From a virus: a stretch of 26,079 bases of DNA. This document shows, piece after piece, positions 12,276 to 26,079 of this stretch. A program made the position numbers and the translations under genes. The notes beneath the pieces were generated by a model. That model was not told the DNA's origin. It was given only the letters and a program-made list of their open reading frames with translations, and searched no databases. How positions within the stretch are numbered: position 1 is the first letter of the stretch; every line of letters starts with the position of its first letter. The stretch lies in IMG/VR virus record IMGVR_UViG_3300028823_000011, positions 1 to 26,079 of that record. The stretch is one strand, 5' to 3'.

Positions 12276-13574
12276 ATGGCAATCAAATGGACTAACAATG
12301 CTAGTACTACTCTAGCAAGTTCCATCTCAGCCGTAGCTACGACTATCACGGTTGCCTCCAGCGGCGGTTCACTGTTCCCTACCTTGGGTGTCGGTGATTA
12401 CTTTTACGCAACTCTTGTTGATTCGTCGAACAACATCGAGATCGTAAAAGTTACCGCTCGTGTTGGTGACGTGATGACTGTGGTTCGCGGCCAAGAAGGA
12501 ACATCTGCCAACGCTTATGTTGGTGGTGACAAGTTTGAACTGCGCCCGACTGCTGCTGGTTTCGCTGCTGCTGCTGAGGGTGAGAACATCGTTGACCTAC
12601 CCATATCTCAGGGTGGTACAGGAGCTGGCAATGAAGGTGACGCTAGAGCAAATCTTGATGTGGTGCAAGACCCGGGTGCCAACGGTATTATGGTACGCAC
12701 GGGAGCTAACGTCTCAACCGCTCGGACTATTACTGCTGGCAATGCTGGTATCAGTGTTGACGATGGCAATGGGGTTGCTGGTAATCCTGTAATCTACAAC
12801 GACGGTGTATGGTCGTTAACGGCTGGCGATGGCATTACTGTAAGCGCACCTGATGGTGACATCACTATTGACAACGATGGCGTGCTTAGCTTCAACGGCC
12901 AAACAGGTGATATCACATTTACAGCAGATCCTCCTTCCATTGAAGTCTTTACTTCTAGCGGCACTTGGACTAAGAACACTGGCCTGAAGGCTGTGATTGT
13001 TGAGGTAGTTGCTGCTGGTGGTGGTGGCTCTACTCGCGGTACAGTAGGTAAAGTAACTAACTCTGGTGCTGGCGGTGGAGGTGGTGGCTACTCTCGCAAG
13101 TTAATTCTTGCTGCAGCCCTTGGCTCTACTGAGACTGTTACTGTTGGTACTGGTGGCACAGCATCTAAGACAGGTACAGCCAACACTGACGGTGGTTCTG
13201 GTGGTGCTTCATCCTTTGGCTCACACGTTACTGCTACTGGTGGTGGTGGCGGTCAAAAGTTTGATGGCGCTGCTCCTGCTACTGCTGCTTCTGTTGGTGG
13301 AAGTGGTGGACTTGGTACATCAACATTCTCCAACACTCCTGCGGAAGGCATCAACATTGATGGTGCTAAGGCTGCTGATGCGACTACTGTTTCAACTGAT
13401 GGCGGTATTTCTGGTTTTGGATATTCTGGTGCTGGTACTGGCGCTAAGAGTACCGCGGCTGGATCTGCATTGTCATCTTTGTACGGTGGTGGCGGCGGAG
13501 GCGGGTTCAACAGCGGCACAAACAATGCTGCTACTGGCGCCAATGGTGTTGTGATAGTCTACGAATACTACTAA
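12276..13574 (+). CDS. tail fibre / adhesin with glycine-rich tip, 432 aa
   Basis: Probably the receptor-binding appendage. Residues 1-100 form an N-terminal domain (WTNNASTTLASSISAVATTI ... VVRGQEGTSANAYVGGDKFE) common at the base of fibre proteins. Then comes GGTGAGNEGDARANLDV, a typical fibre linker. From about F225 (FTSSGTWTKN) begins a glycine-rich region with many GGGG runs, the architecture of polyglycine adhesin tips, ending in GVVIVYEYY. The start ATG 12276 has AGGAG about seven bases upstream. Codon use switches to GGT and GCT in the glycine-rich part. Such domains vary fast and set host range. The next small genes follow immediately. Confidence 0.85.
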   Translation: MAIKWTNNASTTLASSISAVATTITVASSGGSLFPTLGVGDYFYATLVDSSNNIEIVKVTARVGDVMTVVRGQEGTSANAYVGGDKFELRPTAAGFAAAAEGENIVDLPISQGGTGAGNEGDARANLDVVQDPGANGIMVRTGANVSTARTITAGNAGISVDDGNGVAGNPVIYNDGVWSLTAGDGITVSAPDGDITIDNDGVLSFNGQTGDITFTADPPSIEVFTSSGTWTKNTGLKAVIVEVVAAGGGGSTRGTVGKVTNSGAGGGGGGYSRKLILAAALGSTETVTVGTGGTASKTGTANTDGGSGGASSFGSHVTATGGGGGQKFDGAAPATAASVGGSGGLGTSTFSNTPAEGINIDGAKAADATTVSTDGGISGFGYSGAGTGAKSTAAGSALSSLYGGGGGGGFNSGTNNAATGANGVVIVYEYY

Positions 13575-13585
13575 TCGAGGTGATT

Positions 13586-13786
13586 ATGAAAGCTTTAATT
13601 TCCCCAATGGAACCTCGGGAAAGTGGATTCCGTGTAGCAGAGGTTTCAGCGCAGGACTTTCCTGTAGCTGATCCTCTGTTCTGGGTTGACTGTTCCGATA
13701 ACATTGTTGCAGACGAGTACTGGTATAAGGACGGTGTGTTCACACTGTTGCCACGCTACGAACCAGATACCCCAGAGGTGATCTAA
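13586..13786 (+). CDS. hypothetical small protein, 66 aa
   Basis: A short acidic protein right after the fibre gene. ATG 13586 is preferred to GTG 13580 because GAGG (13577-13580) lies five bases upstream. The protein carries several aromatic residues (DPLFWVDCSDNIVADEYWYKDG) and ends DTPEVI. Small proteins with a similar aromatic WVDC...WYKDG stretch accompany fibre genes in various phages, possibly as fibre chaperones or caps, but I cannot assign a function. The stop TAA (13784-13786) overlaps the next ATG (13786). Confidence 0.7.
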   Translation: MKALISPMEPRESGFRVAEVSAQDFPVADPLFWVDCSDNIVADEYWYKDGVFTLLPRYEPDTPEVI

Positions 13787-14304
13787 TGCAAATAAAATCC
13801 TACCCTTGCCACGGCTGGGTTATTGACCGTACCACTCTGCGTAAGGGTGAGTTCATCAATGACCGAGTGATGGCATCAAACAATTTCACTTTCTCTGGCG
13901 GCAAGATTCTCCGTGATGACGGTGAGTTGAAGCAATACTGGTGGTTCATGGAGTCCGGCCACAATACTCATGAGAGTGCAATGGGTCTCATTACTGATCA
14001 AGAGTTTGGCTGGAGCAATAAAGACCACGAGATACCAGATGGTGATTACCTGTTAAAGGTTCTTGAGCCATGTGTCGTATGGTGCTTCAATGAAACTGCA
14101 AACGATACTTTGCCAGCATTTGATTTCCAAGTTGTTAAAGCTGGTGACACTTGGGGATTCCAAGATGGTGATAAAGTATTTTTGATGTGCGGCTCATTCA
14201 CTGTTGATGGTAAAACTGTAACAGGCCCACGCCAGATTGTAGTGTCTGGTAACAAATTTGTTACTGTAACAGTTGATGCAATGTTCATTACGCTAAGAGA
14301 CTAA
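13786..14304 (+). CDS. cupin-like beta-barrel protein candidate, 172 aa
   Basis: Unknown function. It starts in a TAATG overlap with the previous gene. It is soluble and beta-rich, with segments resembling small cupin or jelly-roll proteins: IPDGDYLLKVLEPCVVWCFNE, FDFQVVKAGDTWGFQDGDKV and FLMCGSFTVDGKTV, followed by GPRQIVVSGNKFVTVTVDA. A full set of metal-binding cupin histidines is not obvious, so the fold is a guess from strand patterning. It heads a run of accessory genes after the fibre and could work with them on the virion, on a sugar, or as a sensor. The next gene begins two bases after its stop. Confidence 0.6.
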   Translation: MQIKSYPCHGWVIDRTTLRKGEFINDRVMASNNFTFSGGKILRDDGELKQYWWFMESGHNTHESAMGLITDQEFGWSNKDHEIPDGDYLLKVLEPCVVWCFNETANDTLPAFDFQVVKAGDTWGFQDGDKVFLMCGSFTVDGKTVTGPRQIVVSGNKFVTVTVDAMFITLRD

Positions 14305-14305
14305 T

Positions 14306-14881
14306 GTGTTTCCATATTTCCAAAAGCTAAACATTACGCTGCCAGACGCAGATCTTTCACTTGATGCAACAAAGATGAAGGTTCTGCATTACTATGCGGC
14401 AGCGCAGAAACATAGCCTAAGGGCTAAGAAACAATTTGAGAATTATGTTGCGATACCAAATGCGACATACATCCCGCGGGAAGAAGATGTAGCTACATTG
14501 CTACCTTTACTTCCTGCGGATCTCATAGCTATTGAAAGCCCACAGCTTTGGTGTATGAACATCAAGCCGCAGCACAAGAACAATGTTCTACCAGCGCACA
14601 GAGATCTCACACGCTTGGCAAGCATTAGTTTCTTTTTTGATACACATGGCGAGGAGACTTCCTTCTATGAGTACGAAGGATCTAATCTTGTAAAGGTGGC
14701 AAGCTTTGTGGCGCAACACGGAGATGTGTACCTACTCAACGTCGATAAGGTTCATGATGTTAAGTTGGCAGCACCGCATATACGAAAGTCTTTAGGATTT
14801 TCTTTTATAACAACTCCATTCGAAACAGTCTATGATCAACTACGCAAAGCTGAACTTATCTCTGGACACGAACTGCCTTGA
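14306..14881 (+). CDS. Fe(II)/2-oxoglutarate oxygenase-like protein A, 191 aa
   Basis: The pattern H98-R-D100, H150 and R160 (spacing H-x-D, 49 residues to the second H, then R ten residues on) matches the facial triad and 2-oxoglutarate-binding arginine of the oxygenase superfamily. Strand patterning around the motif (ASISFFFDTHGEETSFYEYE, HGDVYLLNVDKVHDVKL) supports a double-stranded beta-helix core. About 90 N-terminal residues precede it and are probably substrate-specific. The start is GTG 14306. The following gene is a clear paralogue and overlaps this one by 50 bases. Substrate unknown: a hydroxylation of protein, nucleotide or fibre sugar are all open. Confidence 0.7.
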   Translation: MFPYFQKLNITLPDADLSLDATKMKVLHYYAAAQKHSLRAKKQFENYVAIPNATYIPREEDVATLLPLLPADLIAIESPQLWCMNIKPQHKNNVLPAHRDLTRLASISFFFDTHGEETSFYEYEGSNLVKVASFVAQHGDVYLLNVDKVHDVKLAAPHIRKSLGFSFITTPFETVYDQLRKAELISGHELP

Positions 14882-15380
14882 GGGTGTACCTCTACAAGTT
14901 CACAGAACTCTAGGGAAAAGACAGAAGTATGCGAAGGAGCTGGAACTCACAAACACCTTGCTCCCTGTTGATGTACTGCTTATACCAAGCAAGAGAGTTA
15001 CAGAATATTTAATTTCTCAATTGCCAGTAGCAGTAAGGGCTGTCGAGATTCCGACACTATCCATACTTGAAATGAATGTGCCGAAGGATTGTGAGAATCC
15101 TATGTTTGGCACCCATGTTGATCTTGCGAGGATAGCAACAATCAATCATTACCTAGATGCTAATGATGAAGAAACTTGCTTCTATCAGTGGGTAAATGAG
15201 AAGGCTATGCCAGTAGAAAGGTTTGTTGCTCAAGAGGGCGAAACATATCTGCTTGACGTAAGTGTGCCACATTCTGTTAAACTTGTCCCGGGCAAAACCA
15301 GAAGAATACTCACAATGAGTTTTGTGCGTACTTCGTATAGCGACTTGTGGAGGATGTGTGCATCTAAAGTTCATAAATGA
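14832..15380 (+). CDS. Fe(II)/2-oxoglutarate oxygenase-like protein B, 182 aa
   Basis: Paralogue of the upstream gene. The conserved alignment includes EETCFYQW (EETSFYEY in A), RFVAQEGETYLLDVSVPHSVKL (FVAQHGDVYLLNVDKVHDVKL) and the C-terminal SF(V/I). The metal triad is H95, D97, H147, with R157 or R158 as the likely co-substrate arginine. ATG 14832 lies inside the upstream gene without a clear ribosome site. The YAKLNLSL opening aligns with YFQKLNITL of protein A, so the start is kept by homology. Two adjacent, overlapping and diverged copies suggest a duplication that gave different substrates or a heterodimer. Confidence 0.72.
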   Translation: MINYAKLNLSLDTNCLEGVPLQVHRTLGKRQKYAKELELTNTLLPVDVLLIPSKRVTEYLISQLPVAVRAVEIPTLSILEMNVPKDCENPMFGTHVDLARIATINHYLDANDEETCFYQWVNEKAMPVERFVAQEGETYLLDVSVPHSVKLVPGKTRRILTMSFVRTSYSDLWRMCASKVHK

Positions 15381-16074
15381 AATACCTGACGTAGCAAAAG
15401 TTTATCCAATGGAAAGATCTAAGGATGTATCTTTCCCTTGGGTAAGGCGCATGAGAGATGATTATGCAGCCGTAGCAAAGAAGCCTGACTACAAAACACA
15501 GAGTAACGTGCATGCGGCTCGATGCCCCGGAATATTCCATCTGCTTAGGCATGGATGGATTATGCGTACTTGGTCTGATATAGCAATCACAACCAATGGC
15601 GATGGCCTGTCATTTGAATGGCGCTCACCACATAAGTGGGACACACCATTGATGGATTGGGTTCATGAACAGAACTACTCTAAGTTCATGGACAACTGGC
15701 CTGATCAATCACTAAAGCATTTACTAAAGTTTAATACTGGTTGGCGCTGCGAAGTACCCAAAGGATACTACCTTCTGGAAATGCCCATACCCTACCAAGA
15801 TGATTGTAGGTTTGAGGTAATGCCGGGGACGTTTGTCCGTGAGTATGGCGCGGCGGCAATGAATCCATTCATCCGATGGAATGTAAAAGAGGGCACTGAA
15901 CTAATCCCTGCTGGTACACCATTGGCACAATACATCCTAGTTCCTAGAGAAGAAGTATCGTTCTCATGCGAGGAGTATGACCCAAAGATTCACGATGTTG
16001 GTCTACTCGATTTCATTAAGAAGGGAAAATTTGTCAACGACATGGGCTTCGTAAGGAGGTTCTTCGGAGACTAA
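15358..16074 (+). CDS. hypothetical protein, 238 aa
   Basis: An uncharacterised soluble protein that overlaps the end of oxygenase B. I choose GTG 15358, which has GGAGG at 15349-15353 four bases upstream. TTG 15322 would add 12 residues and lacks a site. Segments look like a beta-rich domain with a tryptophan-rich middle (LLRHGWIMRTWSDIAITT, GDGLSFEWRSPHKWDTP, RCEVPKGYYLLEMPIPYQDD, GTELIPAGTPLAQYIL). The opening FINEIPDVAKVYPMERSKDVSFPWVRR is unlike any family I can name with certainty. It has been seen, as far as I recall, next to other phage oxygenase-like genes. It is probably functionally linked to the two paralogues before it. Confidence 0.68.
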   Translation: MHLKFINEIPDVAKVYPMERSKDVSFPWVRRMRDDYAAVAKKPDYKTQSNVHAARCPGIFHLLRHGWIMRTWSDIAITTNGDGLSFEWRSPHKWDTPLMDWVHEQNYSKFMDNWPDQSLKHLLKFNTGWRCEVPKGYYLLEMPIPYQDDCRFEVMPGTFVREYGAAAMNPFIRWNVKEGTELIPAGTPLAQYILVPREEVSFSCEEYDPKIHDVGLLDFIKKGKFVNDMGFVRRFFGD

Positions 16075-21018: not shown

Positions 21019-21432
21019 ATGGAAAAACTAATTAACGACCCAGATAGGGTATGGCACTTCCTAAAGGATATCGGCGTACCAGTAATGTACTCCGCTGGTA
21101 TGCAAGGAATAGGACGAGAGATCGATGGCGGTCTAGTCGGTGCCGTACTCTATGAAGGGTACACAACGAATAACATCTTCATGCATTGCGCGGGAAGAGG
21201 CAAGAGGTGGATTAGCAAGAGCTTACTTAAAGCTGCGTTTGCATATCCCTTCAAGCAATTATCTTGCAAGAGAATTACAGCTTGGGTTGAAGACTCGAAC
21301 GTAGATTCTAAACGCCTTGTCGAACACATAGGTTTCGAAGTTGAAACTATGCTCAAAGGTGCGGCTCACGATGGCGGTGATGTCATCCTATATGTTATGT
21401 GGCGAGACAAGTGTAGATTTTTAAAGGACTGA
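21019..21432 (+). CDS. GNAT-type N-acetyltransferase, 137 aa
   Basis: It looks like a compact GNAT-fold acetyltransferase. A strand pair around 38-57 (GLVGAVLYEGYTTNNIFMHC) leads to the acetyl-CoA-binding loop AGRGKRW (58-64) and helix SKSLLKAAFAYPF. Then comes KRITAWVEDSNVDSKRLVEHIGFE with N94 and GF105-106, the typical motif B, and a final ILYVMWRDK strand. It would transfer an acetyl group from acetyl-CoA to an amine. The target is unknown. It lies in a block of virion genes, two bases before the next ATG. GNAT proteins are, to my memory, repeatedly found at this place in short-tailed phages. Confidence 0.85.
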   Translation: MEKLINDPDRVWHFLKDIGVPVMYSAGMQGIGREIDGGLVGAVLYEGYTTNNIFMHCAGRGKRWISKSLLKAAFAYPFKQLSCKRITAWVEDSNVDSKRLVEHIGFEVETMLKGAAHDGGDVILYVMWRDKCRFLKD

Positions 21433-23835: not shown

Positions 23836-26079
23836 ATGGCAACTTCCCTCTACAAGACTTCAAACACAGCAGGCTCCGAAGTTAGACGTAGGGGGAAGGG
23901 GATCTCCGATGGTACATACAAACCGGGCGACTTTGTTCAGAAAGATACTGGACAAGAGTACGTCCCGGGGCGTATTGCTAGCGAGGCAATAGGCGAAGAC
24001 TACCGTCCCGGTGTGCTTGCTGATCGTGCTTTACAAGAACCCCTTCCTACCCCTTCCCAGCGTCGTCGTGGTATCTCTACCGCGCCATCAAGGATTCGTC
24101 GCGTCCATTGGAAGGCGATTTCATTGGTGACACTGGTCGTTCCCTATTAACGGGCGGCGTTAACATTGTCAAGGGTGTATATGAACTTGGGAACCTTGCG
24201 TCTGGTGGAGCGCTAGATGAGGCCATTAAGTCCCGTACTGGGACTACTGGGACAGAAAACATTGCCGGAGGTATTCAACAGATCCGTGAGCAAGACTCCC
24301 CAGCCCTGCAAGCACAACGCAAAGAGCTAGAGGATGCTAAGGGTTTTGTTGACAGCTTTACAACAGTCCTGACTAACCCACGTCTGGCTGGCTCCATGCT
24401 GTTTGAGATGGCACCACAGTTGGCTACCGTTGCTTTGGCTGCTCGTACCGTAGCGGTTAAGACATTTGCATGGGGTCTTGAGTCTGGTCTGTCGGCTGAA
24501 GCAGCTTCTAGTCTGGCTGCAACCAACGCAACCCGTACAGTTCTTGGTGTTAACTCCGTGCTTGAGGGCACTGCCGCTGGCTCAGACGCTCGTTCGTCCA
24601 TCCTTGGCATGAAGGAAGAGGAACTAGCCAAGTCTCCCCAGTATCAAAAGCTGTTGGCTGAACTGGGCGATCCTAAGCTAGCCCGTATGAAGCTGGCAAA
24701 CGATGCTTCTGTGGTGTCTACTGCTTTGGCAGGAACCATCTCGCTTGTCTTGAACAAGGTATCTGGCGCTGGTGAGTTGGAAGCTAAGGTTCTGGGTGGC
24801 GTAACTGGCGTAGCTGAAGAAGGTGTCAAAAAGTCAATAGCTAAAGAAGTAGCTAAAGGCGTTGCCAAAGAAACAATACAAGAAGCTGGTGAGGAGGGTG
24901 GATCTCAGTTCGCTCAGAACGTAGGCGAGATGACCTCAGGAGCGCGTCCAGACAAAGATCTCCTTGAGGGAGTACCAGAGGCTGCTGGAGCTGGCGGTGC
25001 GCTTGGCGGGGTGTCTGGTGGCTTCTTTGGGGGTATCTCTAGCCTCAAGGGTAAAACAGCTACGCCTGATGCTGCGCCGGGTACTACCCAAACAGACCAG
25101 ACTCAGAAAGAGTGGCGTAACAATTTGACAAATACCGAGATGGTATCGGGTGCTAACAGTCAAGAACTGATGGCTCACCTGTATGCCACCGGAGATGAAG
25201 CTACTCGCGCTCGTCTAAGGGCTGCAAACCCCGGCCTGAATCTGGAAGCCCTGTCTCAGGATGTCGATCTGGTAAAGAATGGTCAGCGTATTGCAGAACG
25301 CGCACCCGGTTTTGTCAACCAGTTTGTCAACCAGCTAGAAGCTTTCGACCTAAATGCAGCTACTGAGGCTGCTCGGGATGAGATGCGCACTACAGGTAGC
25401 CGCGGTCTTACTGTTGCCAAGGATCTAGCCGCACAAGCTGCTGCAGAACAAGAGCAAGGTATCACCAAAGAACCTCCAGCTCCGGGTGAAGAGCCAGCTA
25501 CCCAACAAGTAGCACCCGCCCCACGTCGCGAACCTCTCGATCAGGAGACTCGTGACCTGCGCTTAGGTGGCTATCAGCGTCAGGCTTTGAATCTGATGCA
25601 GCGCCCACCAGAGTTCCGTAATCAGCAAGCCCAAGAAACTATGTTGGACATGTTGGCTGAGGGCTACACTCAAGATGAAGTGGCAGAAGTATTTGCTCCT
25701 GTCTTTGAGGCTGGCCTTGAGGAAACAGCGCTGGGCTATGATGCTCAGTTGCAAGAGGCTCCTCCTGCTGTACAGGAAACAGAGGCTCCTGACAATATTC
25801 CTGATGCTGGTTACAAGAGAGATACCCTTGAGGTTGTTGAGGCACCCATCCTCCCAACCGACACAGATCCATTCAGCTTTGATCAGATCGTTACTGCGCT
25901 AACTAAGTCTGACTACGAAAAAACTGGTGGAGATCCAGAGCATTTGGACAGGATGAACTACGTCCAGACTAAGGTGCCTCCTGAATTCCAGATGATTGCT
26001 GATGCGCTCGGTATCCGCCTGTACGGTATCAAGTATCTTGGCAAGAACCCAAGAACTACTCGTCGTAATGGTATCTCCT
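23836..26079 (+). CDS. giant virion protein, N-terminal part (frame broken once; runs off the window)
   Basis: The frame from ATG 23836 stops at 24148-24150. The -1 frame is open from 24024 to the last base (about 680 codons) and reads like real protein: SSWYLYRAIKDSSRPLEGDF, then hydrophobic stretches (LAGSMLFEMAPQLATVALA, VVSTALAGTISLVLN), a glycine-rich GAGGALGGVSGGFFGG, and later an acidic, proline-rich region. I infer one gene with one base missing between 24024 and 24147, perhaps in the CCCC runs at 24040-24043 or 24050-24053. Before the break there are three Y-x-P-G units (Y28, Y42, Y56), each 14 residues apart. The end (IADALGIRLYGIKYLGKN) may begin an enzymatic domain. It is probably a polyvalent protein injected with the DNA. 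Confidence 0.8.

Follow-up and report, generated by a model that had tools for sequence, protein, structure and literature searches.

Two diverged Fe(II)/2-oxoglutarate oxygenase-like genes downstream of a glycine-rich tail fibre gene in an uncultured virus

Two adjacent genes of an uncultured virus encode proteins, here called copy A and copy B, which on the strength of their predicted structures and sequences almost certainly have the fold of the Fe(II)/2-oxoglutarate (2OG) oxygenases and belong to the corresponding predicted catalytic class. Judged by their sequences, A and B form a new family within this known superfamily, and the window (the whole stretch of DNA analysed here, i.e. the 26,079 bases of IMG/VR virus record IMGVR_UViG_3300028823_000011) carries a new version of a fibre-linked cluster of oxidative enzymes. 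Based on the gene context, we suggest, tentatively and with somewhat less than even confidence, that A and B hydroxylate a phage protein made together with them, most likely the glycine-rich tip of the tail fibre.

The features of the locus are collected in Table 1. The upstream part of the window contains terminase, portal-like and major head genes, while downstream of the PHROG 7084 gene there is a gene whose product has a C-terminal hydrophobic stretch, as well as holin, spanin and endolysin genes. A preliminary description of this DNA had reported two adjacent paralogous genes, overlapping by 50 bases, behind the fibre gene. Both ORFs are real and their overlap is exactly 50 bases. They lie downstream of the fibre gene, as described, but not directly behind it, since a 68-aa ORF and the gene of a 172-aa protein intervene. 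The 68-aa ORF has a homologue at the same place in the viral contig L009 (related viral contigs are designated here by L and a number) and no match in PHROG, and a PDB search with the 172-aa protein gave no usable match.

Table 1. Oxygenase pair of the window and its neighbouring genes
Feature	Positions	Strand	Details
Tail fibre, glycine-rich C-terminal tip, candidate substrate	12276..13574	+	Pfam Gly_rich_2 2.2e-12; PHROG 863 9.6e-28
Small ORF, 68 aa, between fibre and 172-aa gene	13580..13786	+	
172-aa protein, function not assigned, directly upstream of copy A	13786..14304	+	
Copy A, Fe(II)/2OG oxygenase-like	14306..14881	+	GTG start, 191 aa; predicted ligands H98, D100, H150; predicted 2OG-binding R160
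Copy B, Fe(II)/2OG oxygenase-like paralogue	14832..15380	+	ATG start, 182 aa; predicted ligands H95, D97, H147; R157
PHROG 7084 protein, directly next to copy B	15322..16074	+	start codon uncertain

The paralogy of A and B is borne out by BLASTP (30% identity, 2e-24, over 174 residues, which is almost the whole length). The shared motifs are present as described (EETSFY/EETCFY and FVAQHGDVYLL/FVAQEGETYLL), and so is the spacing of the putative catalytic residues, i.e. H98-R-D100, H150 and R160 in copy A, and H95-V-D97, H147 and R157 in copy B. Elsewhere in the window, an acyl-CoA N-acyltransferase-like gene (21019-21432) was noticed between the genes for the internal virion protein and a further virion protein, and a long open frame (24108-26078), similar to the virion RNA polymerase (1.7e-20) and DarB-like (1.1e-9) protein families, runs off the contig.

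Single-protein scans of viral contigs retrieved only close relatives. An alignment-based scan, which included gp06 of Roseobacter phage CRP-3, gave 65 loci in viral contigs, and when profile searches were iterated on these loci together with CRP-3 and the window, 84 ORFs were obtained, corresponding to 65 distinct proteins. The catalytic set is kept by these homologues: in the numbering of copy A, H98 and H150 are present in 65/65 distinct proteins, and D100 and R160 in 62/65 each, with H in place of D100 in the other three. Each window protein retains all four residues. The proteins in which H-x-H replaces H-x-D are encoded at L032:5836-6444, L038:5836-6444 and L044:4600-5199, and may possess a three-histidine iron site. 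In the second copy of L013 and L014, a TxF segment has been lost and the arginine is shifted by one residue.

CRP-3 gp06, annotated as a hypothetical protein, belongs to the same sequence family as the window pair and keeps the four residues. Unlike the pair, it is encoded by a single-copy gene, located between the thymidylate synthase and primase genes. Among phage records, a DNA search gave no match to the pair, and tblastn gave none for copy A and only CRP-3 for copy B (2e-4). One relative also matched Lactococcus phages, in proteins annotated as exonuclease/helicase, but with E values of 0.4-1 these matches were regarded as fortuitous. Bacterial genomes were scanned with one degenerate pattern, which revealed no relative and does not establish absence of the family in bacteria.

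Neither window protein gave a significant match in Pfam, PHROGs or NCBIfam, and therefore the sequence family has no name; their best PHROG matches are unrelated (E 0.029 or weaker). For the family as a whole, the profile databases gave weak hints of Asp/Asn hydroxylase, 2OG-FeII_Oxy_3 and isoleucine dioxygenase. The Asp/Asn beta-hydroxylase model PF05118 reached a best E value of 0.051 and was matched by 4 of 42 members, one of them with a score of 13.0 bits, i.e. below the gathering cut-off of 22.6 bits. PHROG matches of some members to ‘minor coat protein’ and ‘cysteine dioxygenase’ (E about 0.01-0.02) were rejected as too weak.

The fold was predicted with AlphaFold2 from a 42-sequence alignment, and the mean pLDDT of the models was 87.3 for copy A and 94.0 for copy B. 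The best structural matches of copy A were 1e5r, a proline 3-hydroxylase (Z 11.6 over 148 residues), and 6n1f, a bacterial 2OG oxygenase (Z 10.7), and those of copy B were the same two structures in reverse order (6n1f, Z 11.5 over 145 residues; 1e5r, Z 11.1 over 147). Both match lists are led by 2OG oxygenases with the double-stranded beta-helix fold (Z 10-11.6 over 128-158 residues), and a few other cupin-type beta-barrel proteins appear lower down. All five matches of a PDB sequence-profile search were likewise 2OG oxygenases, each of them weak (E 0.18-0.76).

In the profile alignment, the conserved residues of the family pair with H107-R-D109, H158 and R168 of proline 3-hydroxylase, of which H107, D109, H158 and R168 are the known ligand residues of that enzyme. 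In the model of copy A, the first histidine ends a predicted core strand (94-98), the second starts a later strand (150-153) and R160 starts the next (160-167); such strand positions of the two histidines and the arginine are a requirement of the 2OG oxygenase superfamily. Those of the histidines are also compatible with a predicted triad that would come together in a single pocket. The conserved catalytic residues, the fold prediction and the profile search thus all point to the superfamily that had been proposed from the motifs.

The fold common to A and B and to proline 3-hydroxylase type II (1e5r/1e5s) and the Asp/Asn beta-hydroxylase group (PF05118, 5apa) extends over nearly the whole phage chain. 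Proline 3-hydroxylase also shares with the pair the H-x-D motif, a second histidine about 50 residues further on and an arginine ten residues after it. However, identity to both groups is only 8-14%, no Pfam model is significant, and the phage proteins are shorter (182-191 aa versus 260-290 aa), and hence they presumably lack the C-terminal part of proline 3-hydroxylase.

The order of the two copies is conserved in L009-L011, L013 and L014 (contig L012 ends after copy A), with identities down to 39% for A and 30% for B. A maximum-likelihood tree separated the five A sequences (support 98/91) from the five B sequences (95/91), each set forming a clade of its own. Copy B and single-copy relatives group apart from copy A with a support of 81/81, which is below the threshold of the tool, and thus the split between A and B may predate their pairing, but this branch is not firm. 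The pN/pS values between the window and L009 are 0.33 for A and 0.16 for B, and those between the window and L011, where synonymous sites are saturated, are 0.25 and 0.40, respectively. Judged by these ratios, both copies are under purifying selection, and the pair is kept in divergent relatives. As the copies form separate clades and show pN/pS values of 0.16-0.40, we conclude that they are both maintained and distinct, in agreement with the earlier proposal that they are specialised rather than redundant. Separate adjacent pairs of family genes are present in L020, L022, L036, L048, L049, L051 and L052, and looser pairs in L032, L038, L039 and L047.

The clade comprising A, B and their nearest relatives has a branch support of 84/85, below the threshold of the tool. 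In seven of its eight representative contigs, a glycine-rich gene is located one to three genes upstream of the oxygenase gene, and the eighth contig, L016, starts too near the oxygenase gene to show one. Among the other representatives, a glycine-rich gene was found in 1/31, at a distance of five genes, and it is not fibre-like. Homologues of the 172-aa protein gene directly precede a family oxygenase gene in L009-L014, L016-L018, L044 and L045. In the larger sister group, the family members are not located beside fibres; they have thymidylate synthase and primase genes, psbA or other genes as neighbours, and therefore the fibre cannot be the substrate for the whole family. Moreover, enzyme and fibre do not change together, because dS between the window and L009 is 0.39 for the fibre gene versus 0.06 and 0.08 for the oxygenase genes. 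The fibre gene (compared with L009:3159-4454) is a divergence hot spot, with dS of 0.06-0.13 in the genes just behind it.

Further oxidative-enzyme genes were observed around the family members. In L016-L018, three further, different 2OG-oxygenase-like genes follow the family member in a row, and more are also present in L044. Of these rows of four (L016:1162-3306, L017:1919-4027 and L018:2250-4394, the family member being the first), those of L017 and L018 follow a glycine-rich fibre. L020 carries three kinds of 2OG oxygenase together with a radical-SAM and a fatty-acid-desaturase-like gene; the genes seen at L020:2206-8196 and in L052 are radical-SAM, fibre-like, 2OG-FeII_Oxy_5, the family pair, desaturase-like and Asp/Asn hydroxylase. 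Three (or two) similar 2OG-oxygenase-like genes are placed in tandem right after the family member in L067:6344-7900 and L034:6202-7241, with no glycine-rich fibre nearby. By a rough count, such oxidative-enzyme genes make up 28/193 of the genes within three positions of a family member versus 8/242 of those farther away, figures that are indicative only, as the seeds were picked by eye, mostly near family genes.

A related arrangement was found in cyanomyoviruses. Homologues of the PHROG 7084 protein of the window are encoded in 14 cyanophage records (24-29% identity, tblastn E down to 5e-24), and outside cyanomyoviruses this family was detected only together with the window type. The window protein has a weak dUTPase-like similarity, seen in six of seven weak PDB profile matches (E 0.12-2.4) if Wsv112 is counted among the dUTPases, and one homologue is annotated as ‘triphosphate nucleotidohydrolase’. 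Seven of the 14 records were inspected (syn9, S-RIM44, P-TIM40, Syn10, S-CREM1, Sf-FR1 and Sf-FP1), and the gene order in all seven is as follows: fibre genes, a small gene, one or two tryptophan halogenase genes (two in Syn10), the PHROG 7084 homologue and a series of genes, most of which are annotated as 2OG oxygenase or ‘DNA endonuclease V’. For Syn10, similarity to syn9 genes is the sole annotation of the fibre genes and of this series. In S-CREM1, at least eight genes named 2OG oxygenase and one JmjC gene follow the PHROG 7084 homologue in the stretch read, and the fibre-like neighbour is annotated as ‘collagen-like protein’.

The C-terminal part of the window fibre is homologous to fibres of syn9, S-RIM44 and P-TIM40 (best phmmer value 1.4e-13). 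A 27-residue stretch of the tip that is free of glycine bias gives, on its own, 1.9e-8 against cyanomyovirus fibres, and the chains of the window fibre and the S-RIM44 fibre both end with GVVIVYEY. Tips of this glycine-rich type are built, in T2-type phages, as a polyglycine sandwich with loops that bind the receptor (PMC12892980).

The cyanomyovirus clusters (syn9 gp41-gp51 and the others) therefore resemble the window in having a homologous glycine-rich fibre tip, the PHROG 7084 family and 2OG oxygenases. The window differs from them in that no halogenase ORF was found between the fibre and the oxygenases, only two oxygenases are present, and these are placed before the PHROG 7084 gene, not after it. 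The window oxygenases also represent a different sequence family from those of the cyanophage arrays (best match P-TIM40 gp051, 4e-5 when 35 proteins were searched). As far as genes and sequences can be compared, it is the arrangement and the superfamily that are common to both. Oxygenases behind glycine-rich fibres, frequently in rows, thus recur in related contigs and in cyanomyoviruses, and the initial impression that oxygenases beside an adhesin are unusual had to be abandoned.

The cyanophage proteins labelled ‘DNA endonuclease V’ (PHROG 274) are structural neighbours of the pair in BFVD (E 9e-7), although with only 11-16% identity in the fold search. One family member matches PHROG 274 (E 0.0014), whereas the window proteins themselves do not. 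Proteins with this label that resemble 2OG oxygenases include L074:9818-10336, L075:7679-8314 and L076:7869-8477, and the BFVD entries A0A0E3EVN2 and Q58MQ0. Their fold neighbours and sequences indicate that the label is probably wrong.

It is already known that cyanophages may carry several 2OG oxygenases per genome and that phages encode tryptophan halogenases, and nitrogen signalling, DNA repair and antibiotic-like protection have been offered as explanations (PMC3037559, PMC2984593). Among 153 cyanophage genomes, 2OG oxygenases are present in 76 and halogenases in 20 (PMC10452541). For VirX1 of Syn10, the first viral halogenase, the characterisation made use of substrates that are not natural ones (PMC8407142). 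The co-occurrence of a prolyl hydroxylase with collagen-like tail fibres has been raised as an open question (PMC9301287). In the literature that we covered, which is only a part, no report of the fibre-linked oxygenase/halogenase arrangement or of the smaller version seen in the window was found.

Based on these observations, we propose that in A and B Fe(II) would be bound by the H-x-D motif and the second histidine, and 2OG by the arginine ten residues past the latter. Molecular oxygen would be used to hydroxylate or otherwise oxidise the substrate, with succinate and CO2 as by-products. The substrate would be a phage protein made together with the enzymes, the foremost candidate being the glycine-rich fibre, whose gene lies three genes upstream, and gene context and phylogeny suggest that both copies may have been retained because their target sites or substrates differ. 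The fibre tip is our first choice since, in two widely different types of phage, it is the shared neighbour. Among the substrates named in the preliminary description, gene context favours the fibre, while the only hint of a nucleotide is the weak dUTPase-like similarity of the PHROG 7084 protein. Little can be concluded from position by itself, because late-gene clusters also carry unrelated cargo genes.

A broader reading, which is possible though doubtful, is that a portable module exists in several kinds of phage, in which 2OG oxygenases oxidatively tailor the glycine-rich fibre tip after translation, together with flavin halogenases in the cyanomyoviruses. If this module is real, the window would be its minimal form, with two diverged oxygenases and no halogenase, and the orphan viral halogenase of Syn10 would gain a natural protein substrate.

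Several other substrates have to be considered. A and B might be auxiliary metabolic genes whose location in the late region is accidental and which act on a host molecule or a free metabolite, e.g. a free amino acid, as in the case of proline hydroxylases, or they might consume 2OG and so shift host nitrogen signalling. We regard this as unlikely, yet serious: the closest structures include the free-amino-acid enzymes 1e5r, cis-4-hydroxylase (4p7w) and lysine halogenases, other family members are located among metabolic genes, and an influence of cyanophage 2OG oxygenases on the level of 2OG has been proposed (PMC3037559). However, the clade is repeatedly found beside glycine-rich fibres, late structural genes and the families of the 172-aa and PHROG 7084 proteins, and neither a pair of diverged copies nor arrays of up to eight would be required to lower 2OG.

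It is quite unlikely that the enzymes serve another co-encoded protein, such as the 172-aa protein, the PHROG 7084 protein or a different virion protein. L015 and L038 combine the oxygenase with a glycine-rich fibre and have no detected homologue of the 172-aa protein, even though most of the clade has a gene of this family immediately before the oxygenase gene; similarly, the PHROG 7084 family travels with the 2OG arrays of cyanomyoviruses, but was found only in these and with the window type.

Action on nucleic acids, by AlkB-like repair or by base hydroxylation, seems improbable. AlkB/ALKBH and FTO structures are indeed among the fold matches, but the AlkB-type ones rank under amino-acid and protein hydroxylases. 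A role of 2OG enzymes in cyanophage DNA repair has been suggested (PMC3037559). The ‘DNA endonuclease V’ label of related cyanophage proteins, the weak dUTPase-like matches of the PHROG 7084 neighbour and the position of CRP-3 gp06 between thymidylate synthase and primase would fit an action on nucleic acids. On the other hand, the window pair lies between the fibre and lysis genes, not among replication genes. Finally, it is scarcely credible that A and B are degenerate or non-catalytic cupin-like proteins which merely retain the fold, e.g. structural parts or fibre chaperones, as the H-x-H variants and the altered second copy of L013/L014 might hint, since the four residues are intact in both window copies and in nearly all of the family.

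The 2OG oxygenases and halogenases of marine phages are widespread and have usually been described as host-metabolism genes. If the fibre-side enzymes modify the fibre tip, as we tentatively favour, phages would tune host binding by chemistry besides sequence, and fibres purified from E. coli could be incomplete. The purpose of the viral halogenase VirX1 would then become testable. Regardless of the substrate, a sequence family without a database model gets a clear enzyme class.
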